Shown: piece after piece, positions 7,901-64,000 of the stretch
How positions within the stretch are numbered: the stretch's first letter is position 1
Layout: each line of letters opens with the position of its first letter
Assembly: GCF_964199755.1 (NCBI RefSeq)
Contig: NC_133911.1
Location: 5,049,001-5,113,000 of the forward strand
Direction of reading: 5' to 3'
DNA length: 64,000 bases
From: Larus michahellis
Lineage: Eukaryota > Chordata > Aves > Charadriiformes > Laridae
Translations under genes and position numbers: made by a program
The notes under the pieces: generated by a model
Database searches by the model: none
Told to the model about the DNA's origin: nothing
The model's input: only the letters and a program-made list of their open reading frames with translations

Positions 7901-10900
7901 TTAGATAAGGCCAGTCACTTTGTTGATTTCTATCCCCCTTTTCTTCTGTGGAAATTAAGTCGTTAACAAATCTGTGCAGAGCCCTGCAAGATGTGATGTG
8001 CTAGGAGAGAGATGAGCATTAAAGCGCTTTTATTAGTGCCTAAGGGGAAAAAACCAGACGAAAAAAAGGCTGCAGACACAGCTAGCGCCCAGTCATCTTT
8101 GTGGTGCACAAGCCTGAGGTCAGGAAAAATTTTATGCACACCTAAGTTTAAGCTTCAGTGGTTTTCTTCGCACACTGGAGTTATTTCCCAGAACATGACT
8201 GTGCCAGCTTATTTCTGAGAGGGTTTTCTTGGCAGAAAGCACAAGGCGCTGTCAGTGCAGCTACAGGAACGGGCAAGGCTGCACACCTTACTGACTCCAA
8301 TCCTATTTTTTTTTCAGTTCAGATTGATTTGCCACCCACCATGCACATCTCCAGAGGGCTCCCAGGCCTCTACACAGCTGTACAGATGCATCTGCACTGG
8401 GGTGGCCTGGACCTGGAGACCAGCGGCTCCGAACACACCATAGACGGGATGAGATACTTCGCAGAGGTACGTGCGAATGGAGCGGGGTGGAGGGAGGGCG
8501 TGTTGCAAGGCTGGCAATGGGGAAATGGGATGCTGAAGCCCACAAAGCCTGCAGGAAGGAATGCAGAAGCAAGCGGGAGAAATGGGGCTCCCAGAAGTGC
8601 AGGTGGTTGGTGCTACGCAAGGGCTGAACCTGAGGGTGCTGGCACGGAAGGCTAAAAGCCGTTGCAATAGCACTAATATCCTTCAAAGATGGAGTTATTC
8701 CTCCACATTCATCACAAACCTATTAAACTAAAGGTCTATTTGGCTGCGCTGGGAGGCACAACCAGCAGGAATTGGCATGGTGAATCTCCCCTTGGGTCCT
8801 TTAGAGCACCGAGGAAGCCATTTATCACTTCTTGCTAAATGACCCTGTCTCTCTTCTGACAGCTGCACATTGTCCATTACAACTCAGCTGACTACGCAAG
8901 CTTTGAAGAAGCCAAAGACAAACCAAACGGATTGGCTGTGCTCGCCTTCCTGTATGCGGTAGGTTTGTCGCCCAGGCTGCGGAGCAAGGCCAGCCTGTGA
9001 TTGCTGGTTGTACCAAAATCGCCGCCCAGGCACAAGCAGCCTGTACTCGCTGTGCTCATCTATCCTAAGAGATGACGCCTGCCACCGGTTTGAGGAAGCT
9101 GTGCTGCAGCAGGACCATTCTTTCCATATGCCATCTGGGGTTGACACAGTACCAGCCAGTATGACCTGGGAGCCCCAGAAAAATTTACCCCATAAGTACA
9201 GATGGATTATCATCTGTACAGATTTTCCCTGCTGTTCCTCAAGGCCTTGCTCTGATTTGCCAGTGGGAACACTTGATTTTGTGGGGATTTAGAAGGGGTG
9301 AAAAAGGATCCTTATAGTTCACTATTCTACCCGAGATCTACGTGTACATACCTTATCATGCCTGGGATTGTCCAGCCTATCGAGATATGCAATAGTATCT
9401 GTTCTCTTTGTCTCCCAATTCATCAATTAGTCCCCCAAGCTCATTAGTAGTGTAAAAGGACAGGCAGGTCACTAACCTTTTGTTCAAGTTTCCATGCTGT
9501 GTTTAGGATGGACACTTCGAGAATACCTACTACAGTGAATTCATTTCCAAACTGGCAAAAATCAGGTTTGCAGGTAAGACCTGGAAATGCCTTTCTCCAT
9601 CCTGGATATTCTCAAATCCTGTACATACGTACTGGGTCTGGGGACAGACGTTTTGTTGCTGCTTTGCTTGCAGTTACGTGGCCAAGCAGCCTCAGCCACG
9701 CACAACTTCATGCCCTTAAAGGTCCCCTCCAACCCAAACTATTCTGTGATTCTATGGCAGTGATTTGCCAACCCCAGCTCTGACACCACTCTCATCTTCC
9801 TCTTTGTTCCCCATTAATTATTAATATATTGCCTCTCTGCTTCCTTTTGAGGTCAATCAACAAAGCTCTTCTCTCTGGATGTCCAAGCCATGCTGCCAGA
9901 AAACCTCTCACACTTCTACAGGTACCAGGGCTCACTAACAACCCCGCCTTGCTCCGAGAGCGTGATCTGGACCATCTTTCATTCTCCCATTGTCCTGTCA
10001 CACACACAGGTAAGTGATGGCTGTTTACCAGACAGAGCAGTTTCTCTTTCCTCCACGCTTCACCTTTCCACGCAAGTTTCCTTTTCTGTCCTACAGTGAT
10101 TTTGGGAACAGAGGATCTAATAGGGCATTTCTCACATAGAGCTTTTGGGATAGACTCCTAAGCAACTGGAATTACAGGGGACTGCAACGGCACAGTGATG
10201 CTACATCACAGCAAGGGCCGGTTTTTGCATAGCAGCAGTTTACCTGAGGTCTGGTGAGTGATAACAAAGCGCTCTGCTCAGGTAAGCTCAACCATCCTGA
10301 AGCACTATAAAAACAAGAGACCAGGCAGAATCAGCAAGGCAAAAAACTGCTGCAGGAGTGTCCAACCCCCACCCCTACAAACCGTAAAAGAGCCATTTAT
10401 AATGTTAAAATAACGACAAAATAATTGGCACGTTTTTAGAAGACTGTTTCAGGTTTTTTCTTGTCTGCACTGACGTTGTGCAGCTGGATCCCACCATTTC
10501 AGGAGTGCCAGCCGTGAGCTGCTCCGTGACAGGAGAGGGTCTGTCCAGGCTCCAGCGGAGGCATTACAGAGGACCTTGTGGTCCCCTGTACAACCCCACT
10601 TGTCCCAGCAATTGAATAGTGTCCCATGGCAAGATCCCCTTCTCTCCTCTCTGCCTGCCTTGGCAGGACAAAGGCTTTAGCAGGAAAAAGTAATAATCTG
10701 ACTGTTGAATCCTGCAGAGTGATTCATCTTCCTTAATAACAGAGAAGCATTAGAAACGTTTTTTTTCCTAGGAGAAGAACAAGATGAAGCAGAGACTGCA
10801 GTAGTGGGGGATCACAGCGTGTTCTTATTTGAAAAAGAAATACTCTTTTTGGCAGGGGGAGGGCTAGCAGGCACTTGTGAGAAAACAATGTGCTACAGGA

Positions 10901-13118
10901 TAGCAGCAAAATCTCCATCCATGCATATCATCATGCAGATGTTAAAAACTGCCTTCGGGCGAAATTTCTTTATCCTGAATTAGCTGGTAAGAGCCCTCGT
11001 GTTCTGTTCCTTTCCTTCTGCTAATGCTCAGCAAGAGACGCTGTGGGTTCCTCTAGAACAAATTACTCTGTTTAAATCCCGAGCTGCAGGATCTGCGCTG
11101 CACTCCCAGGCAAAGCTGTTGTTCCCATTCCCCTCCATAATAAGCCCGCATCGCCCACAGATCAGCCTCCTGGAGAACACCTTGCTGGACTGGCAAAACA
11201 GGACGCTGCGCAACGACTACCGGCACGCTCAGCCCCTCAACGGGCGGGTGGTGGAGTCCTCCTTCAGCGCCAAACTCACCCGAGGTAAGGGCAGCCAGCA
11301 GCGAGGATCCCGGCTTTCCCCCAGGAGGGACAAGAAACTTGTATGGAAGGAGCTATGTCGAAGACACTTAAGCTAGGGCATGGTGGGGCTCGCCTCTCCC
11401 AGGAGCAGCAGTGTCCCTACACAGCAGGTGGAGGTGGCCCACGTTCCTCTTTGGCCCCTGCCAATACATCTTGCTTCTAACGGCGCAGTGGTGGCTGTAG
11501 GTTGTGTGCCAGCCCCTTGTTTGGCTGCAGCGATGTCACACAGCCGCCAGCCCCTTGCTTTAACTGCAAGGGGGTCACACAGCTCTCCCAGGATGAGTGG
11601 TGCTACCTGACACCACGCAAGAATACTGGGTTCAGGTGCGTCTCCATCCGTACAGGTGAGGTACACTCACCATCGCAGAAACCGCTCTGGCGTGGCTGGT
11701 CAGCCAGGCACCATACGGAGGTGAGACACTGCGTTTTAAAACAAAAGCTTTCCCCCAGACCTTCAACAAACTAGAAAGCAGAAAATCGACCATGTGCAGG
11801 TCCTGGCCTCCTGTAAGTTCAGCTGTCTGATTGCTCTAGAACAATGCCATCCAGAAGAATTCAGCCTCAGGCTGGAACAAATCCAGATGCAGCTCCAAGA
11901 CGTGAAGAGAGAGTTGCTGAATGGAGTGAGCCACACAGGTGAGAAACACACATCTATTCTTGAGTCCAGCTTACCTTCCAAGGACGGAGAGCCCATGCCC
12001 TACTGTCCTTGATAGCCTAAATCATTAACAGGTTTGGTACTGATACGTGCAGGTAGAATTTTGTCCCACATCTAGGCCTGCTGATGGAAATGCTTCAACT
12101 ACGGCATCATTAAAGCTAGCTCTAATCTGGCTACTCTCGCCGCGACTTTCTTCTGAAAGAAGTGACACCATCATTTTCTCCTGAAACATGTAAACACATT
12201 TTTACAAACAGTGAGGGATTTAAGCTCACAGTTCCCCTAGGATAAACAATCATCATCTCTATTTTACACAAGATGAGAAAAGAGGGAGGGGAGGAGGAAG
12301 TGATTTTTCCCAAACAATTGAGTACGGGAGCTAAAGTTTTCATCAGTTCAACACACCCCCCCCCGCCGTTGGTACAACACATGCCAGCTACTGTGGCTCA
12401 AGACTGCCACAGCCCTGCCCGTTCCTATGGGTATATTCTTTCGGATGTGGGCTGATTTATAAACACCGCAGGAAATGTAACAGCTGGCTTTTTGGTTATT
12501 TCAGGTATTAAATCCAGCACTTTTCCAGCTTTCTACTTCCCTGTGGAAAACATTGAGAGTTTTGTCAACGTTCATCCTCGCCATGATATGTCTCTCCAAG
12601 CCTTCACCTTATGTTTCTGGACAAGAGCCCAGCACACTGGCACTCAGACTGTTCTTTCCTACTCCACACAGGAGAGGGATAACGAGCTAGTGATGACCGT
12701 AGGCACAGATGTGGGACTATGGATAGGAGGCCATTTCATCAGCTTCCCCCTGTACCACAAGGCACAAGACTGGCTGCACTACTGCATGGCATGGGCCTCC
12801 CAGTCTGGAATGGCAAATTTATGGCTCAATGGAGCAGCTGGTAAAGCAAAGAGTATCCAGAAGGGGTACGTGAGCCAGGCTGGAGGGACACTTGTCCTTG
12901 GGAAAGATAGAGACACTCTTCTTGGGACGTTCTCCAATGGTTTTGCAGGATGGATGACTCATGTGAACCTGTGGAGCCAAGTTCTCAGTCCTGCAGATGT
13001 TCGGGCACTTGCACTGTGCAAACCAGGGCAACTGAAGGGAGATATCATAGCATGGGGAGAAACCTCCATGACCCTCTTGGGAGGGGTGGTTCTGGAGTCT
13101 GACACCAGCTGTCAGTGA
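1846..13118 (+). CDS. CA6: CA6, secreted carbonic anhydrase VI with C-terminal pentraxin domain (9 coding exons)
   Basis: The gene encodes a zinc enzyme that interconverts CO2 and bicarbonate; CA VI is the secreted isozyme (saliva and milk in mammals). Exons are 1846-1924, 3944-4126, 8318-8466, 8863-8958, 9507-9573, 9852-10009, 11161-11284, 11840-11938 and 12505-13118, all with GT-AG borders and consistent phases, giving 522 aa. Order: hydrophobic signal peptide (about 1-20), carbonic anhydrase domain (about 22-285), helical linker (about 286-315), pentraxin domain (about 325-520). Zinc ligands are H112, H114 and H139; the proton shuttle is H86; the gatekeeper pair is E126/T221; C42 and C225 match the CA VI disulfide. 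N209 and N257 are glycosylation sequons. Human CA VI is about 308 aa and ends shortly after the helical segment; the pentraxin fusion is the form known in non-mammalian vertebrates. Identity is secure. The exon 8 acceptor is the least certain border, because an in-frame alternative exists at 11759. Confidence 0.93.
3598..3668 (+). promoter_or_regulatory. CA6: CCAAT/TATA cluster in CA6 intron 1 (candidate internal promoter)
   Basis: An inverted CCAAT box (ATTGG, 3601-3605) sits about 60 bp before TATATAAA (3661-3668), and a candidate donor (GTAAGC) lies near 3707. The cluster is about 280 bp before exon 2. Mouse Car6 is known to have a stress-induced, signal-less transcript from an internal promoter. 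Whether this cluster plays that role is inference. Confidence 0.35.
3944..4126 (+). CDS. CA6: CA6 coding exon 2
   Basis: It encodes residues 27-88, starting [13 protein letters not shown]. It contains C42 (disulfide partner), the QSPIDI motif typical of alpha carbonic anhydrases, and NNGHS with the proton-shuttle histidine H86. The acceptor is CCACCCAG and the donor GTAAGA. Confidence 0.92.
6792..7150 (-). mobile_element. Truncated CR1 LINE (3' end) in CA6 intron 2
   Basis: The minus strand matches the avian CR1 3' region as I know it: on the plus strand, GGATCACAGAATG, then GGGAAGGGACC, CAGCCTGGCCTTGAA, GGGATGGGGC, CTTCTTCCTGAT and AAGGTCTCCCC in the usual order. The plus strand begins with the complement of the CR1 terminus, so the element lies on the minus strand. 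It is a non-autonomous fragment. Confidence 0.88.
8318..8466 (+). CDS. CA6: CA6 coding exon 3
   Basis: It encodes residues 88-137, including MHLHWGG with zinc ligands H112 and H114, and GSEHTIDG with E126 (Glu106 of CA II). The acceptor follows a long T-tract; the donor is GTACGT. Confidence 0.94.
8863..8958 (+). CDS. CA6: CA6 coding exon 4
   Basis: Exactly 32 codons (residues 138-169). LHIVHYN carries the third zinc ligand H139, and GLAVLAF is the conserved core strand. The donor is GTAGGT. Confidence 0.93.
9507..9573 (+). CDS. CA6: CA6 coding exon 5
   Basis: A 67-bp exon encoding residues 170-192, with [14 protein letters not shown] matching the human NTYYSNFISHLANI. The donor is GTAAGA. 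Confidence 0.92.
9712..9756 (+). mobile_element. Very short CR1 3' tail in CA6 intron 5
   Basis: CTTAAAGGTCCCCTCCAACC followed by CAAACTATTCTGTGATTCTATG is the last ~45 bp of a CR1 element in plus orientation, ending in the ATTCTATG-type terminus. Confidence 0.8.
9852..10009 (+). CDS. CA6: CA6 coding exon 6
   Basis: It encodes residues 192-244. [12 protein letters not shown] holds the active-site gatekeeper T221 (Thr199), T222 and disulfide C225, and W231 follows. N209 lies in an NLS glycosylation sequon. Confidence 0.94.
11161..11284 (+). CDS. CA6: CA6 coding exon 7
   Basis: It encodes residues 245-286. [18 protein letters not shown] aligns with the human NDYRRTQPLNHRVVESNF and completes the carbonic anhydrase fold. 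N257 lies in an NRT sequon. The donor is GTAAGG. Confidence 0.93.
11840..11938 (+). CDS. CA6: CA6 coding exon 8 (helical linker)
   Basis: It encodes residues 286-319. The reading [20 protein letters not shown] aligns in register with the human CA VI C-terminal helix. L297, I300, L304, V307 and L311 form a 3-4-3-4 heptad, suggesting an amphipathic or coiled-coil helix. I chose the acceptor TTGCTCTAG by this homology. An upstream in-frame acceptor (TTTCCCCCAG, exon start 11759) would add 27 residues including two extra cysteines. Confidence 0.75.
12505..13118 (+). CDS. CA6: CA6 coding exon 9 (pentraxin domain)
   Basis: It encodes residues 319-522 and the stop codon. Pentraxin landmarks: C355 and C412 (the conserved disulfide pair), a signature-like HYCMAWAS at 410-417, D377-N378 aligning with the CRP calcium residues D60-N61, and NLWSQVLSP near the end. 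The signature has A414 where Ser/Thr is usual. Of the second calcium segment, CRP E138-Q139-D140 reads D453-R454-D455, and the Q150 loop is two residues shorter. Confidence 0.92.
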
Positions 13119-41300: not shown

Positions 41301-42587
41301 CATCGCCTCCCAAATGACGCTTGTTTGAAAATAAAAGGTGACAAACATTTGACTGAGAAAACAAAGAAAATTCAGTACTTGCCCTGATGGCTTTTTTTTT
41401 AAAAAAAACCAAACAGATCATTCCTCTTATAATTTATTGCAAAAGCTAGAGGGCACAGAGGACTAAAGGATCACTGTTTTGCTCAGCGTGGAGGTAGCAC
41501 ATGATTCCACAAGCTCAAATTGCATAATGAAAGCTTTTACTAAACATGATGTGGAAAATCAGCTTGTTAAATAGCAGAAACTGAGACATAAAGCTGCACT
41601 GTGGTCTGTTTTGTCTTGCTTTCAATCAAACATGCCAAAACAACCTTCAGAGTGCTTTGCCAGCAGCCTCCTCACTTGCAGGCTATATTCTCCCACATTT
41701 ACAGCAACCTGCCTGGGCAGAGGGGAAGGATCTACAGACCAGGCTGCCACGGGGAAGACGGGGACCTGCGGAAACACATCCCAAACACGGGAGTTTTGGC
41801 AACAGCACGCTGATATTTCAAACACAAGTTTCATTTCTAGGACATCAGAGCAGATTGCGGAGGGAAAGCAGAAGCCAGGATTTTCCGAATCGTTACCTCT
41901 TACCGGAGATTCTCCTAGGTGACCTTAAACAAATAATTTTTAAGTTTTCCACATCTCCATTTCTTCACTTGGGAGGGAAGAGGGCGGGGGGGTGAACAAG
42001 CAAGGCTGGTTAGTGAAAAGACAGCAAAATCCCTGTTTAAAAGGCACTTGAGAAGGGCACACTACCCTTAAGAAAAGCGCAGGTGACTCCAGCAGCCATC
42101 CTGGTGCTTCACGGCGGAGCCGAGTGTGCCAGCGGTGGCTCCTGGCCACAGGCTGGGTGGCTTTGGGGTCCGCACCTCGGGGCCTCACCGGGACGGCCGA
42201 CAGCACCCACCTCACGACGTGGAAGCAGCAGAGCAAGCCCGTGCCCGTGGGCGAGCCCCTCACAATGGTGATATAGAGGTAAAGGGCAACGGCCATGGTC
42301 CAGAAGAAGGAGCTGGTGTTGGAGAAGGTGGACAGGGCGCCCTGCAGCACGCAGTCCCATGACGTCCTGTCGAAGTCCTGCAGCACCCCGTAGAAGTAAG
42401 AGAGGGCTGAGAGGAGGTCTGCCAGCGACAGGTAGAGCAGGAGCTGGCGGGGACGCGTCCGCAGCTCCGGCCAGAGGGCGTGGGTGCAGACCAGCAGGCT
42501 GGAGCCCAGGAAGGAGAGCACGCAGGACACCAGCACGACCCCCCGCTCCGAGGCGTACAGCCGGGTGGGGGGCAGCGGCTCGGGCAT
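32183..42587 (-). CDS. GPR157: GPR157, orphan G protein-coupled receptor (4 coding exons)
   Basis: This is a seven-transmembrane receptor; mammalian GPR157 is reported to signal through Gq in primary cilia of radial glia. Exons in transcript order: 42211-42587, 35576-35789, 32921-33115 and 32183-32398. Phases agree and give 333 aa (human is about 335). Helices 1-3 lie in exon 1 (about 16-36, 47-68, 80-108). C79 (WDCVLQ) and C155 (VGWCW) are the likely extracellular disulfide pair. Long stretches match human, including LADLLSALSYFYGVLQ, KKIGYDAS, ADKKLILIP and GIGNTFQGGANCIMFVLCTR. The start MPEPLPP matches the human proline-rich N-terminus. Only the cytoplasmic tail after CCCHH is diverged. 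The order next to SLC2A5 and MIR34A agrees with human 1p36. Confidence 0.93.
32921..33115 (-). CDS. GPR157: GPR157 coding exon 3 (helices 5-6 region)
   Basis: Exactly 65 codons (198-262): HAALSEYRPILS in the intracellular loop, then DKKLILIPVIFIVLRIWSTV and CNSPAVQNSLLVVLH. The donor is GTAAGT. Confidence 0.93.
33508..33575. repeat. (TA)n microsatellite with flanking CA/TG-rich end
   Basis: Alternating TA runs broken by short A and T runs, followed by CATACACATGTACGTGTATG. It lies in GPR157 intron 2 and can fold on itself. Confidence 0.9.
35576..35789 (-). CDS. GPR157: GPR157 coding exon 2 (helices 4-5)
   Basis: Residues 126-197: VAAVALKKIGYDASNVSVGW with sequon N149 and disulfide C155, then LWMLLTGKVWEILAYVTLPV and HINRA. 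The acceptor is CTTCCTCAG and the donor GTGAGT. Confidence 0.93.
36374..36417. repeat. 22-bp tandem duplication in GPR157 intron 1
   Basis: TGTTTGTTTTTAAGTGGAGATG occurs as two adjacent copies (36374-36395 and 36396-36417), preceded by a GTTT-rich run. Confidence 0.9.
39233..39348. repeat. Imperfect inverted repeat (16-bp arms)
   Basis: The left arm ATGGTTATAAACATAT (39233-39248) and the right arm ATATGCTTATAACCAT (39333-39348) are complementary with one mismatch, separated by 84 bp of AT-rich sequence. It lies in GPR157 intron 1. It may be a chance palindrome in AT-rich DNA or the ends of a small old transposon. Confidence 0.6.
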
Positions 42588-42790
42588 GCCGGACCGGGCG
42601 GAGGGACGCGGCACCGCCGGGCCCCGGCAGCGGCGGGAGCGGCCCCGCGGCCCGGCCCGGCCCCGCCCGCCCCCGCCGTCATGTGAGCCCGGCCCGGCCC
42701 CGCCGCCCCCGGGGAATCCCGGCCGCCGGACGGGCTGGAGCGCGCTCGGGGGGCGCTGGGGCACGGCCTGCCGCCGCCCCGGCAACAACC
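42100..42790. promoter_or_regulatory. GPR157: CpG-rich island over GPR157 exon 1 and promoter
   Basis: The sequence is strongly GC- and CpG-rich, with repeated CCCCGCCC and GGCCCGG blocks upstream of the ATG, in contrast to AT-richer flanks. No TATA box was seen, as usual for such promoters. An E-box-like TCATGTGA lies at about 42679-42686. Confidence 0.8.
42211..42587 (-). CDS. GPR157: GPR157 coding exon 1 (helices 1-3)
   Basis: Residues 1-126, GC-rich. The open frame extends upstream of the chosen ATG, but the conserved N-terminus starts at MPEPLPPTRLYASERG. The exon ends FHVV plus AG before donor GTGGGT. Confidence 0.92.
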
Positions 42791-43041
42791 TTTTTAATTT
42801 ACAGCAAAAAAACCCCAACCTACCCGACCCAAAAACACACACAAAAAAAAAACCCACAGAAAACAACAACAACAACCCGCCGAGACCGCCTGCTGCAATG
42901 TGACAGAAGGGACTGATTCGGAAATAAGTGCCTTTTTTTTTTTTCCCACTACCATCTCCTAAAAGCATCCTTGATACCCTTCTTCTAAGGAGGGCTCACA
43001 ACTCTCCCACCCTTTCCCAAGGCAGAACTGTATTGATAAAA

Positions 43042-50790: not shown

Positions 50791-51772
50791 TCCTGGCCAC
50801 CCATTACCTTCTGAGTGCAGAACTTTTCTAGACAGTTCATGAAGTTGCACAACTTCCTGTAATTGGTGCAATTATGTTCATGTCTGGATTAAAAAAAAAA
50901 GGCACACAGAAGTGTTAGCAACCAAAGTCATAGCTAGCTTTTTAAAGAGGGGTGGAGTTCCCATGTCCCCGGATTTTGACACCCAGCTCATGCCAAGTCA
51001 GCAAGGGCCATAGAGAAAAGACAAAACCAACTTGGTTTGTTCAAAATTACTGTAAGCTCTTATCCTCTGTGTGACTACCGGAAGTCTAAACAAGATTTAG
51101 GCACGGTCTTTCGGTCTTTCAAGATTGGGATGCTCTTACATTTCCTCCCTTAGAACAATCCCATAATGGATTTGTCCTTTCCATAAATCTTCCTTGCCTC
51201 CCTCTTATCCAGACAATGTAAGTAGCAATGCCTCATTGCCTAATTAAAATCTAACTAATTCTTCCCCAGAAAGACTAGCTAAGTTTTTGGGCACCTGAGT
51301 CGGTGTATTTGCGATGCATACCTGCTCACCAGCACCCAGGAGAAATAGCGACGACAGGTGGGTTGCTCCCATGCTAGGTTCAAAGCCAAGTTAGCTTGTC
51401 ATTAGCAGCCCGAGATTGATGTTTGGATGAATTCTTCCTAAAAGCAGATCCTTCTCCCAATTTCTAGTGTAGCCTTTTTGCAGCGTTACTAACAATAGCT
51501 GGTATTTTACCCTCCGGAAGATGCATGTGGGAAGGACAAAGAACAAGCAAAGCAACTTGCAGCATGTTTATCTTCTCTTTTCTTCATCTCATCTCTGATG
51601 CAGTGACCACATCATCAGGCGTCCTGTGGCATTTCTCACATTAGCGCTCCGCTCCAGCGGACACCTCAAGCTGCAGTGCACCACAGTACCCCTGGGCAGC
51701 ATCCCAACCTGGATCCCCATCCACCTCTCAAGCCAGGGAGATGAGGCAGGCCCAACAATGTGTAGCACTTCT

Positions 51773-51794
51773 AGGGCAGTATACTTGCTGATTG
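51773..51794 (-). ncRNA. MIR34A: Mature miR-34a-3p
   Basis: The 22-nt opposite arm, beginning CAATCAGCAAGTATAC, matches human miR-34a-3p and pairs with the 5p arm. Confidence 0.93.
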
Positions 51795-51815
51795 CTTCCT
51801 TGACTATTGTTCACA

Positions 51816-51837
51816 ACAACCAGCTAAGACACTGCCA
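51816..51837 (-). ncRNA. MIR34A: Mature miR-34a-5p
   Basis: The 22-nt guide strand, beginning TGGCAGTGTCTTAGC, is identical to the vertebrate miR-34a-5p including the seed GGCAGTG. Confidence 0.97.
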
Positions 51838-51929
51838 AAGAAACACTCACAGCTGGCATCACGCAAGGAGGGAAGTTAGGGCAGGTTGTTCGAGCTCCTC
51901 CTCTCTTCTCATTCACAGAAGGCATGAGT

Positions 51930-54900
51930 CTGGGGACAAATAAAGAGTCAATGAAGCAACTGCAGCAGTACTGAAGCAAACAGCCTTCAAGGGAGAAGAG
52001 GCTTAAAACCATGAATTGACAGTTACCCTGTCCCTTACACCTAATCTTGTTTAAGGCCTCTAAGAATTACAAACATTAACATGGTAAACCCAGCTTACTT
52101 GTCTGCAAATCCATATTTATCTCAATGAGTTCCAAGTTTCACATACCACCATTCAGGCAAGACAGTGGAACAACAGAGTGTTTCCAGGGGCTTAATAGTT
52201 TAAGACACAAAACTGTTTAAACTCTTGGTGGGTTCAGTTGACTGCACAGCTCTGCTCTTAGGCCACACAGACAGGAAGAGAGCTCACTGGGAACACAATC
52301 ATCTGCAAAACAAATGAAAAGGAGACCAATACTTACTTGTACTAAAGCCATTTGACTTTGCTATTAAACATGTGGAACAGCCTAAGATACACAAGATACG
52401 GTGTTATCTAGCATTCTTGCAATCCTCAGTTCCTGGAAACACACGAACATGTGAGAAGACAACCTTCAGGGCAAAGCAATTCCTTAACTCTTGCATCACA
52501 GCCTCAAAAGCAGGTTATTACTCAAGGGCCTCTTGTGCAACACTCCAGTATAAAGGTAAAACATGCTGCATGACTAGAAGCTCACTGGCTTTCGTCAGCC
52601 TCTCATTTCTTTAGGTGATCCACTGGCAACACTATGTCTGTATACCCCGAGACATCTAAGCCTTCCATTCCCCCTCCTAATGCACCAGGTTAAAAATTCC
52701 CCAAGCCCAGGAATTTAGTTTGTGTTTGGATAGTAAGACAGAGAGCGCTAAGACTCTCCATTCTTTCTTGCTGTCACCCTGTTTTGCTCACAGTGAAACT
52801 ACATTTCATCTTTCAATAAATTATCAGAAACCTGCCATCCTGTGGAGAAAGGCATGAGCACCAGCTGAAAGGCAAGAATTGGAAACACTTCAAACTGAAA
52901 AGCAGACGTTAAAACCCCAGACTCCTGGCTATCACCGGGCCTTCAGAATGGCCAGCATTTGGGAGCATATATTTTTTCCAAAAGACAGAGTAACCCAAGA
53001 CAAACCTGTTGGGTTTACTTCAGGAGTCGTGAGATAGAGTTCAGTGGCTTCTGTTGTACAGGATGGCAGTGCGGGTGATGGGAAGAGCTCATGCCCTCTA
53101 CGTGATATCGAAGGAGACTGACAAAGGTGAAATGAAGTGCTGTAACTGCACGTCAATCAAACCAGCACAGCAGAGAACAATAATACCTACCAGGCACTGT
53201 GATAACAGAACAAGGGCTCCATTCCCCCTGTCCCAGGAGCCAGCACCAATTAATTAAGAAATCACTTCTTGACTGTAACCTTTTCACCCTAAGGAAAAAA
53301 GCAAACAATTCCAAAACATCAAAATCGAGACTTGACAACAGTACCCACCCTCTTGCCCTGAAAACGTGTCCCACTCTGGAACTAGCTGTCTTGTTTAAAC
53401 AATGACCTAATCATCCCTCCAACATTTCCCATCAGGATCAGAACAAACCAGACTATCTCAAAGGCAATTAACAGGTCAGGGACAAGCACAGCTATAGGAG
53501 AGCAAAACAATCTGGTACAGAAGAGGAAGACACTACTTCATCTTTCATCCTCCTCCGGGGACGTACGGGACTGCAGAATTGCTGTTTTGGGAACTGTAAA
53601 ACTTTCCTTTGAGCCACTAAAAATTAAGCACAACAGGGCCAGGGAAAAGATGCTTTAGGGAACAACCTTGTGTGTATGCAGCAGGAAAATGATCCTGCTT
53701 TTAATTTTTCAAATCATTTTAGCTCCCTTCTGCTGCTTGCTTCCTGTAAGAGTTCCTAGTGCTTTAGGAAAAGAGGAAAACAACTGAAACTATTTAACAC
53801 TCTGGGAGACCATGGAGCAGCAAAACCACCCTCGTAATTCAAGGCTCACAGGAAGGGCAGCCCTAAAAAGAAATATGTGCCCAACACCCAAAGTAGAAGA
53901 GAGGGAGTGCAGCAGTACATGGGTACTGCTCAGCTGGTCCAAACGAGCCTCAAGCCTTCAGCTGCAAGGGGCCAGCATCTTAGATGCTAACGTGTGTCTC
54001 AGTTGGATCTAATCCATTGAGTCCTGCTCCTGGTAGCCAAAGATCTCAATAAATCTAGACAATATCTATTAAATTAGTGCAGCTCATTATATTCTTTATG
54101 GTACAATCAATCTAAGATGTCAACTGAATGGGGACTGGCACAGTACAGCGTTATGGTAGAAGAATGCATTCCTACCCTTGAAGGGTTTATTCTGCACAAA
54201 CATTAGCAACGGTATTGCACGAGACAAGATATTAATTCTTTCTCCCAAATCACTGCAGAGTCATCTTAGAAAAACATCATCTTTCCTTAACATGGACAAA
54301 AATCTTCCTGGTATTAAGTATAAATGAAGGCAGGGAGGTATGTAGGAGCATTCTTCTCCACCCTTCCTATTGATGTACCTGGAGAGAACATACAAGCTGC
54401 AGCTCAAAAGTTTTTAATTACATGAGTCTGGGACAATAGACATGACTATTTTTTTCCCCACAAATAAGAAATGCACAAGCCTCCACAGATGTGAATGGGA
54501 TTTCCCATCATGTGGAGCCCAAACAAGCTGGCAATCAGGCAAGGATCCTTCAAGTTTTACAAGTCCAGTTTGAAAACTACGCAGCAAAAGCATCGTCTCT
54601 GCAGAGACCCGGAGTCATTTAACTGATTATTCACTGCTGTGGCTGCAGGAAAAGCAAGCATTTGCAATACCAGAGTAAGTTATCCTGCTCTTGAGTTTGC
54701 TCTTATTTCTAGATGGTCAGAAGCTATATATCTAGGGATGACTGACTTGGGAACAGCTTTGAAGCCTTACAAGGAAACCAAACAACTTACCTAGTTTAGA
54801 ATTAGCAGGGACCTGTGCAAAGGTGCTGGCCAATAAACTGAGCAACTTTTCCGTTTCAGCAACTTGTCTAACAGCAAATCTTTTCTCCTCCCTTTAGCTC

Positions 54901-60900: not shown

Positions 60901-62485
60901 CATGCGCAAGCGTAATTCCTTGCTGGAATGGTGCACCTTTAACATTACTGCATGCCAATGCCATCAATGGTAGAAGCGAAGTAGTCACTAGAAGAGAATG
61001 GCATTCATCAGAACCAGATATTACATGTTTACTTTCAGGTCCCGCAAAATAACCCTTCTTATCTCTGGTCTACTAAACAAAACAAGACAGCACCCCACAG
61101 CACTTAAAAATTATGAATCCAGTAACAACCAAACTCACCCTCACTAGGTGGAAACTCCAAAACACACTGGCATACGTACAGCTAAGAAAATACCAAACCA
61201 GACTGTACAGATGAGAGGTACGTTGCTTACAAATAAATACATTTTATACCAGAGATATAAGACCTAAGCATGGGTGGGCCTGTCTTCAAAATACAGACAA
61301 AAACTTCAAATCCATTCAGCCCACCTGCTCTGCAGAGATGCCCCTGAAAGGCAGCAGGGGAGGTAACACCAAACCCTGGGCCCAGGCTGGTGTAGCCAGT
61401 TAGCTCCAATGGACTGGTACGTACGTACTTCTGATCTGAAATGACTCCTAGTGTCTTTTTCAATTCTTATCTGAGCTAGCCCTTCCACAAAGTAATGGAA
61501 AGGTGCCCTCCTATGTAATGTAGCGGTTATCTAGATAGTCCCATGGACAGTTTGCACAGACACACGAAACCTCATGATAAGCAGGTGAGTGATGCTCAGG
61601 GCACCCAGATGCGGGTAAAGCCAAGCTTCACTTTGCCGGTGCTCAGGAGGACTGAATGGGAGCAGAGGGGAGCAAAGCCAAACACAGCGTAACAGAGCCT
61701 TCTTCCCCACGTGAGCATCAGGTGATACCAGCATCCGAGCTATATTATTTATCATTTCCATTACAAAATGAACGTGGAGGCAACGTGTTGAGCAGGGTAA
61801 TGACACTGGGAATAGGATGGGGAGGGCAGTTTTGTGCTAAGTGTAGCAGGAGCAGGGGAGAGCTGCCAGCTCCTTGCAAAGAATTAAGCATTCAGCTTCC
61901 ATGCTCCCCTATGTAAATGCTAGACATGGCAATGAGCCACAGAGTGGATAATACCACACAAACTAATTTACCTTGTCTCCTGAACGTAGAAGTCAAACAA
62001 CTAACTCACCAGAATCACTCACTGCTCACTGGGCTCGAGCTGCTGGCTAGCATCCTCAGCTTTCCCGGTCCAGCTGCAGCCCATTCACACAGTGTGAGCA
62101 CACAGCTGCTTTTTTGGGTGCTATTACTTTCCGGGATCTCAAAAACTAGGCACTCACCAGTATCCCCAGCTCCAATGTGCATTTCTGTATGAAGAGCTTG
62201 AAGGCAGGGGGCTACAGAAGAGGAAAGACAAAGAAAAGAAGGTAAAGGAAACACCCCTTTCTCCATCAGGACAGACTAGCAAGGGCAGTTACTGTAACAT
62301 TCTCCTACTGACTTTCCAGACCTCTGAAAGTTTACCTAGCTGCACATTTTTGCACAGACCACGACCACCTCCACAGCCCCGGTCGGACACAAACAGGCTC
62401 TGCAGAAAAGCTGACAGAGAGTGTAACACGGGCAGAGACACACAGCACATCTGCAGGGACAAGCACAAACGCAGCCTGCACTTAC
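51930..62485 (-). other. Presumed intron of the MIR34A host gene; no other gene seen
   Basis: No protein exon was recognised in either strand of this 10.5-kb stretch. A short near-duplicate, CTGATTCATAGC followed by A/G and GAGA, occurs twice at about 58465-58483 and 58493-58509. Confidence 0.5.
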
Positions 62486-62640
62486 CTGAAGAGACAGAGA
62501 AGGTCAGGAAGGCTCCGGTTCAGGAGGCTGCCGGGGTCTCTCAAGGAGGTCTGGTCAGCAGAGCAGCTGTGAGTCGCAGAGGCAGATCCCCTCTGATCCA
62601 CTGGGATCCCTGTGATCGCAGGGACAAAGGCAGGCTCAGG
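62486..62640 (-). ncRNA. MIR34AHG: Probable first exon of the MIR34A host transcript
   Basis: It lies directly downstream (minus strand) of the p53 element and ends CTGTCTCTTCAG at a perfect GTAAGT donor. The 5' border is not visible in sequence and is placed only by nearness to the p53 element. Confidence 0.5.
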
Positions 62641-62643
62641 CCT

Positions 62644-62663
62644 GAACAAGCCCAGACAAGCCC
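62644..62663 (-). promoter_or_regulatory. MIR34AHG: p53 response element of the MIR34A promoter
   Basis: On the minus strand the two decamers are GGGCTTGTCT and GGGCTTGTTC. Both fit RRRCWWGYYY with no spacer. The human MIR34A element, as I know it, differs at one base (GGGCTTGCCT). It lies about 10.8 kb upstream of the hairpin, next to a consensus donor. p53 binding at the human site drives miR-34a induction. Confidence 0.88.
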
Positions 62664-64000
62664 AAATAAAGGCTCTTCCTGAGCCTGCCCGGTTACGAGA
62701 GAAGCCGGCCCTCTGGATGTCACAGCTCGGGACCAGGCACGGTCCCCACGGCCCGCGGGCTGGTGGGAGAGGTCAGCACACAGCCATTTGGGCCAGCACA
62801 GGACCGAGTTTCTTCAGTGCCACATCCTCGATTTCAGGGAAGCTGAAATAACACCGAACGGGAGCACTTCGACCTCAGCACGCTCGTGCCAGGGCTGAAT
62901 TTAATCTGTTTCACTGAGGGAATCCTGCGTTAAGGAAGAACGAGGGGTATCTCCAGGACTCTTCCTGGCAAAGAAATGTAACCCACAACTTCACAATCAC
63001 ATCAGAGGCTCCAGTAATTGGAAAAAGCGAACCGGCAACAGAGACATACTGCAGCAAGGCCACCAGAAACCCATCAGTGCAGGAGCCCAGGTTTAAAGGC
63101 ACACACAACCGGACCCATCCCTCGGGGTCTGAGGCTTTTTTCCTGACAGCCCACAAAGCTTAAGTCCACGCATCCCAAATATTCCCCCCCCTGCAATTTT
63201 GTTAGAGGTAGTGGGGTTGTGGAGGGGCACTAAGGCACCTCATTCATTCTCCAGAGAAGCACTTATTGTGTACACAGCTAATTAAAAAGGAGCCCCCTCA
63301 GAGACAGAGCTGCAGCAGCCTCCTCACCACTCGCACAATGCGGATATTTTTCCTCTCCTTTGTATCAGTGAGTGTTCACATTTACTTTTCTTAATAAAGC
63401 TGCAGGGCCAGATTCCAATTTCAGCAGAGCACAGGCTCAGAGCAGCCTTACTGGATAACTCCACTATTACCTGCTTGAGAAAGTAAAGAATCTGGCCCGT
63501 TAAATCCATCCCTGATAACAAGAAAAAGCCTGTGCAAAATGAAACAAAGTTTGCTGGTTTGGTTGTTGGGTTTTGGGTTGTTTGGGGTTTTTTTGTTGTT
63601 TTTTTTTTTTTTTTGTTGGTTTGTTTGGTTCTTCTTGGTGTTTGGTTTGGTTTGTTTGGTTTTTAAAAAAAAAAAACAAACAAAAACAAAAAACAGGCTT
63701 CTGTACAGACCACCCAATGCTACAGCATTTTTCAACCAACAGTTAAGAGCCCCTCTGAAGCTCCCAGTGCCCAGAGAGGTCAGGCTAACTTACCCTGAGG
63801 CTGTCCCCTGCTGCAGCAGCAAACGGCACTTCCCTCCTCTGCTTTCCTCCAGGTGCCCTTGTTTCCCTGCAGTGATGTGAAGATGCAGCTGGGGGAAGAA
63901 AAAGGGGTCAAGACATACAGCATGACGGGGTGAGTGGGATATCTGACAGCTCAAAGCATTTTTTTTTTTTTTTTTTTCAATACATGTCCATAAGAATACT
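62664..64000. other. Flank upstream of the MIR34A promoter, no gene recognised
   Basis: No exon matching H6PD, the next human gene, was seen. The stretch contains a T/GT-rich then A-rich low-complexity block (about 63545-63690) and a terminal poly(T) run (63960-63977). Confidence 0.5.
63545..63690. repeat. T/G-rich simple repeat followed by A-rich tract
   Basis: Runs of TTTGGTTG, GGGTTTTGGGTTG and TTTGTTTGG type precede TTTTTAAAAAAAAAAAAC and CAAACAAAAAC. The two halves are roughly complementary, so the block can fold back. The long open frames across it are artefacts of low complexity. Confidence 0.85.

Follow-up and report, generated by a model that had tools for sequence, protein, structure and literature searches.

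The window analysed here, a stretch of 64,000 bases of Larus michahellis DNA, carries a miR-34a hairpin and, upstream of it, a 20-base sequence with the form of a p53 response element. This raises the question of whether the sequence is the avian counterpart of the element known from human MIR34A, or a site of the same form with another origin or another role. We consider positions 62644-62663 to be orthologous to the p53 response element of human MIR34A and to lie within or next to the first exon of a predicted miR-34a host transcript, with a probability of about 0.9. This reading is based on sequence and gene order, from which we also infer p53 binding, a transcription start, splicing and p53 induction at the element.

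Gene order around the miR-34a hairpin

Rfam recognized the miR-34a precursor (RF00456) with 63.3 bits against a gathering score of 53.4, and mir-34 was the single Rfam match at gathering score within the window. Pfam named six of the seven open frames submitted and gave no match for the remaining one (overlapping, 42.1-42.7 kb). The markers of the locus are the following:

8152-8655 (8.2 kb), same strand as the pentraxin exon: carbonic anhydrase exon (Pfam)
12456-13118 (12.5 kb), same strand as the carbonic anhydrase exon: pentraxin exon (Pfam)
about 22 kb: sugar transporter exon (Pfam, 22.6 bits against a cut-off of 22.3)
41940-42995, minus strand: open frame for part of a seven-helix receptor, taken as GPR157-like from its position (7tm_2, 27.2 bits; Dicty_CAR, 21.9 bits)
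51767-51844, minus strand: miR-34a precursor hairpin
beyond the right end of the window: H6PD domains, namely G6PD and 6-phosphogluconolactonase, in two frames (Pfam)

The order CA6, SLC2A, GPR157, MIR34A, H6PD is that of human, and gene names that go beyond the Pfam domains are putative. The element is found on the strand of the hairpin and 10,800 bases upstream of it (62644 minus 51844, measured from the RF00456 match), just where the initial annotation had placed it (10.8 kb), and this is its syntenic position under the human order. In its siting upstream of miR-34a, on the same strand and among these neighbours, it resembles the element of human MIR34A (MIR34AHG). As a separate observation, the carbonic anhydrase exon followed by the pentraxin exon on the same strand presents the pattern of a CA6-pentraxin fusion, and we liken 8152-8655 and 12456-13118 to the fusion known from non-mammalian vertebrates. 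At least 150 keratin matches in the assembly (PF02422; 150 of 386 candidates scored) fit an avian genome.

The 20-base element compared with the human MIR34A element

A p53 response element was defined as a pair of RRRCWWGYYY decamers separated by 0-13 bases. A pattern scan of the 64-kb window located two perfect decamers, GAACAAGCCC AGACAAGCCC, with no spacer and no mismatch at 62644-62663, a site of this form that agrees with the double decamer described initially. The plus-strand letters of this interval are GAACAAGCCCAGACAAGCCC, which fit RRRCWWGYYYRRRCWWGYYY without mismatch or spacer, and its minus-strand reading is GGGCTTGTCTGGGCTTGTTC. Two features are listed here:

62644-62663, minus strand: predicted p53 response element, GGGCTTGTCT-GGGCTTGTTC, no spacer, 0 mismatches, 19/20 bases as in the human MIR34A element
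62628-62637, no strand assigned: possible third half-site, AGGCAGGCTC, imperfect, 6 bases from the element, with one mismatch in the central WW

The third half-site may be a chance match. Across the window and the 38 kb of contig that follow it, no zero-spacer site other than the element has both an intact C/G core and fewer than two mismatches. With a dinucleotide model of the window, 0.014 perfect sites are predicted per 64 kb, and the same kind of model built on the local kilobase predicts 0.0002 in 1 kb. Scanning the assembly (1.4055 Gb) resulted in 213 perfect sites versus 47 for the reversed pattern, a density of about 0.01 per 64 kb or about one per 6.6 Mb. When up to two mismatches are allowed, the window contains three sites against 3.76 expected from shuffles, which is no excess over chance, and the other two of these carry two mismatches each. 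A perfect site anywhere in the window is an event of about 1%, and therefore the weight of the argument rests on the position of the element and on its identity with the human one. Among the genomic matches listed, the perfect p53-like 20-mer GAACTTGTTTGGACAAGCTC (or its complement) occurs on contig C2 at 63860261, 68679340, 68811879 and 88816586; this fourfold occurrence may represent a dispersed repeat carrying p53-like sites.

The human miR-34a element is given as GGGCTTGCCT GGGCTTGTTC in Table 1 of PMC4225545, with identical letters in PMC5905954. Compared with the 20-mer printed in these two sources, the minus strand of the window agrees at 19 of 20 positions, and the one-base difference stated in the initial annotation was correct. 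Both elements as printed and read consist of two perfect decamers with no spacer, and the gull element differs from the human one by a single C-to-T change (GCCT to GTCT) with which the consensus still agrees. On the two strands of the window together, the expected number of places at no more than one mismatch from the human 20-mer is 4e-5. Up to three mismatches, the assembly holds 141 such places (58 forward, 83 reverse) versus 11 in the reversed control; only two of them have a single mismatch, the site at 62644-62663 and another on contig C38, and an exact match does not occur. The 311 bases around the element match only themselves in the 1.4-Gb assembly and are single-copy, so a repeat-derived element was rejected. 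A text search of the literature gave no match for miR-34a together with a string reaching across the human half-site junction, and a search of titles and abstract openings did not meet an avian MIR34A p53 element, which may still be in print.

The other mir-34 copies were also inspected. Two mir-34 hairpins above the cut-off were located at 6.593 Mb of contig C21 (6593249 and 6593932), among 63 of 168,356 candidates scored, and are taken as candidates for MIR34B/C. The same 63 included one more mir-34 match, on C41 and below the cut-off, and further copies in the assembly are possible. Within C21:6582001-6595000 (13 kb, of which 11.2 kb upstream), sites with an intact C/G core were no better than two mismatches at spacers of 0-1, and none had one mismatch or fewer at spacers up to 13. 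MIR34B/C as a second conserved p53 target was consequently rejected for want of a good site in these 13 kb.

The predicted host transcript

Splice sites were scored with a weight matrix, and the exon boundaries and intron length reported here are predictions. Acceptors were listed from 51845 to 53500 and ranked among the 4,697 minus-strand AG sites; CpG content was followed in 300-base bins, fifteen in all, covering 61200-65699. The resulting features are:

62480-62488, minus strand: predicted donor site at the end of the first host-transcript exon, CAG/GTAAGT, last exon base 62486, rank 1 of 3,938 minus-strand GT sites in the window
53288, minus strand: higher-ranked candidate acceptor, preceding the hairpin by 1,444 bases, rank 9 of 4,697
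52302-52318, minus strand: candidate acceptor whose exon would begin at 52302, preceding the hairpin by 458 bases, rank 14 of 4,697
51929-51945, minus strand: alternative candidate acceptor whose exon would begin at 51929, preceding the hairpin by 85 bases, rank 38 of 4,697
62700-62999, no strand assigned: 300-base bin with the highest CpG observed/expected ratio, 0.64

The donor lies 158 bases downstream of the element, and the early remark that a perfect donor sits next to the p53 site holds at this distance. With either of the two acceptors near the hairpin (52302 or 51929), the splice scores predict an intron of about 10.2-10.6 kb; since the acceptor at 53288 outranks both, the exon 2 boundary is provisional. 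The host intron is predicted to be roughly threefold shorter than in human. A shorter host intron had also been proposed initially, and this is supported by the distance between element and hairpin, 10.8 kb here versus 30.5 kb in human (30,476 bases upstream of miR-34a according to PMC4225545), the intron length itself being a prediction from splice scores. No strong CpG island was seen in the fifteen bins, the top ratio being modest. In the human layout described in the same source, the element is located 123 bases after the transcript start (PMC4225545). If this spacing holds in the gull, transcription may start near 62786, inside the bin with the highest CpG ratio.

According to the preferred reading, the pair of adjoining decamers would be occupied by a p53-family tetramer, within or next to the first exon of a non-coding host transcript of miR-34a. 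Transcription would proceed to the left along the minus strand, with splicing from 62486 over about 10.2-10.6 kb to a hairpin-bearing exon and subsequent processing to miR-34a.

Concerning the opposite strand, the human p53 site is described as lying within a promoter common to miR-34a and a head-to-head antisense RNA, lncTAM34a (LINC01759) (PMC6030072), which is also treated in PMC11735407. No strong donor was detected on the plus strand of the gull between 62400 and 63900, where the best score was 7.16 versus 12.69 for the minus-strand donor. An lncTAM34a-like antisense exon thus lacks strong donor support in that interval, and a counterpart in birds may or may not exist.

The p53 family and alternative readings

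A search for the protein that would read the element did not find TP53 in the assembly. PF00870 gave six exon matches, all within two loci, and a chicken p53 query gave 11 matches: each of the same two loci had five within it or nearby, and one was elsewhere. The two weakest of those in or near the loci had E-values of 0.01 and 0.1, and the remaining one (E = 7) was on contig C18. In comparisons with PDB sequences, the locus at 9.13 Mb of the contig that also holds the window (C20:9134299-9136282) was nearest to p73 and is assigned to TP73, and that at 28.94 Mb of contig C10 (C10:28942913-28945759) was nearest to p63 and is assigned to TP63; DNA-binding-domain exons of both genes are thus present in the assembly. 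POLR2A, a neighbour of TP53 in human, was matched only on a contig of 71,245 bases (C221), so the neighbourhood of TP53 seems to be assembled in fragments. This neighbourhood is GC-rich and often missing in birds, and chicken has TP53. The absence of TP53 from this assembly is therefore likely a gap due to fragmentary assembly. A literature search on TP53, missing genes and GC-rich bird genomes returned nothing.

These data bear on which member of the family reads the element. A constrained, orthologous element whose main reader in this lineage is p63 or p73 would be a special case of the preferred reading and not exclusive of it, and TP73 and TP63 exons were seen where TP53 was not. However, the short POLR2A contig points to a gap and TP53 exists in chicken, and we regard such a reading as quite improbable. 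Very improbable, in our estimate, is the stronger form, in which the lineage has no working TP53 and reading by p63 or p73 keeps the element near-identical, selection coming from the wider p53 family. In yeast, the human miR-34a element was reported to be highly responsive to p53, while p63 and p73 also activated it, though much more weakly (PMC4225545); as far as that report goes, the weaker response counts against p63 or p73 as main readers, and the fact that they respond at all suggests that the whole p53 family could maintain the element.

The element could also be orthologous while the main miR-34a transcript starts elsewhere, leaving it as a distal enhancer or inactive. The modest CpG ratio nearby and a core promoter that was not identified would agree with this, but the top-scoring donor on the minus strand follows the element at 158 bases, which is consistent with the human layout given in PMC4225545 (element 123 bases after the start), and we find the possibility unlikely. 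As for a non-orthologous site that arose by chance or was gained independently, perfect sites do occur about once per 6.6 Mb, which makes one in the window an event of about 1%. Nevertheless, identity with the human element at 19 of 20 positions is expected only 4e-5 times in the window, and the site occupies the syntenic place, on the side of the miR-34a gene where the element should lie. We hold this origin for the least probable of all, and a chance match was rejected on the 213 perfect sites genome-wide, the two single-mismatch places among 141 and the 4e-5 expectation.

Orthology with the human MIR34A element is supported by the perfect decamers, the 19/20 identity, the rarity of single-mismatch places, the hairpin on the same strand, the best donor of the window, the syntenic markers, the non-repeat surroundings and the response of the human element to p53 in yeast. 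Counting against the preferred reading are the failure to find TP53 in the assembly, the modest CpG ratio, the higher-ranked acceptor at 53288 and the lack of a good site in the 13 kb at MIR34B/C. The initial annotation had proposed that the link from p53 to miR-34a is kept in this lineage; synteny, identity, strand and donor favor this at the level of sequence and orthology, and its functional half is presumptive, TP53 itself being undetected in the assembly. The element provides a precise site for work in bird cells, and it confirms a well-known circuit whose conservation was expected and comes as no surprise. Should the element be functional, the switch from p53 to miR-34a would date back at least to the divergence of birds and mammals; its 20 bases would have stayed nearly unchanged despite an about threefold difference in the distance to the hairpin.
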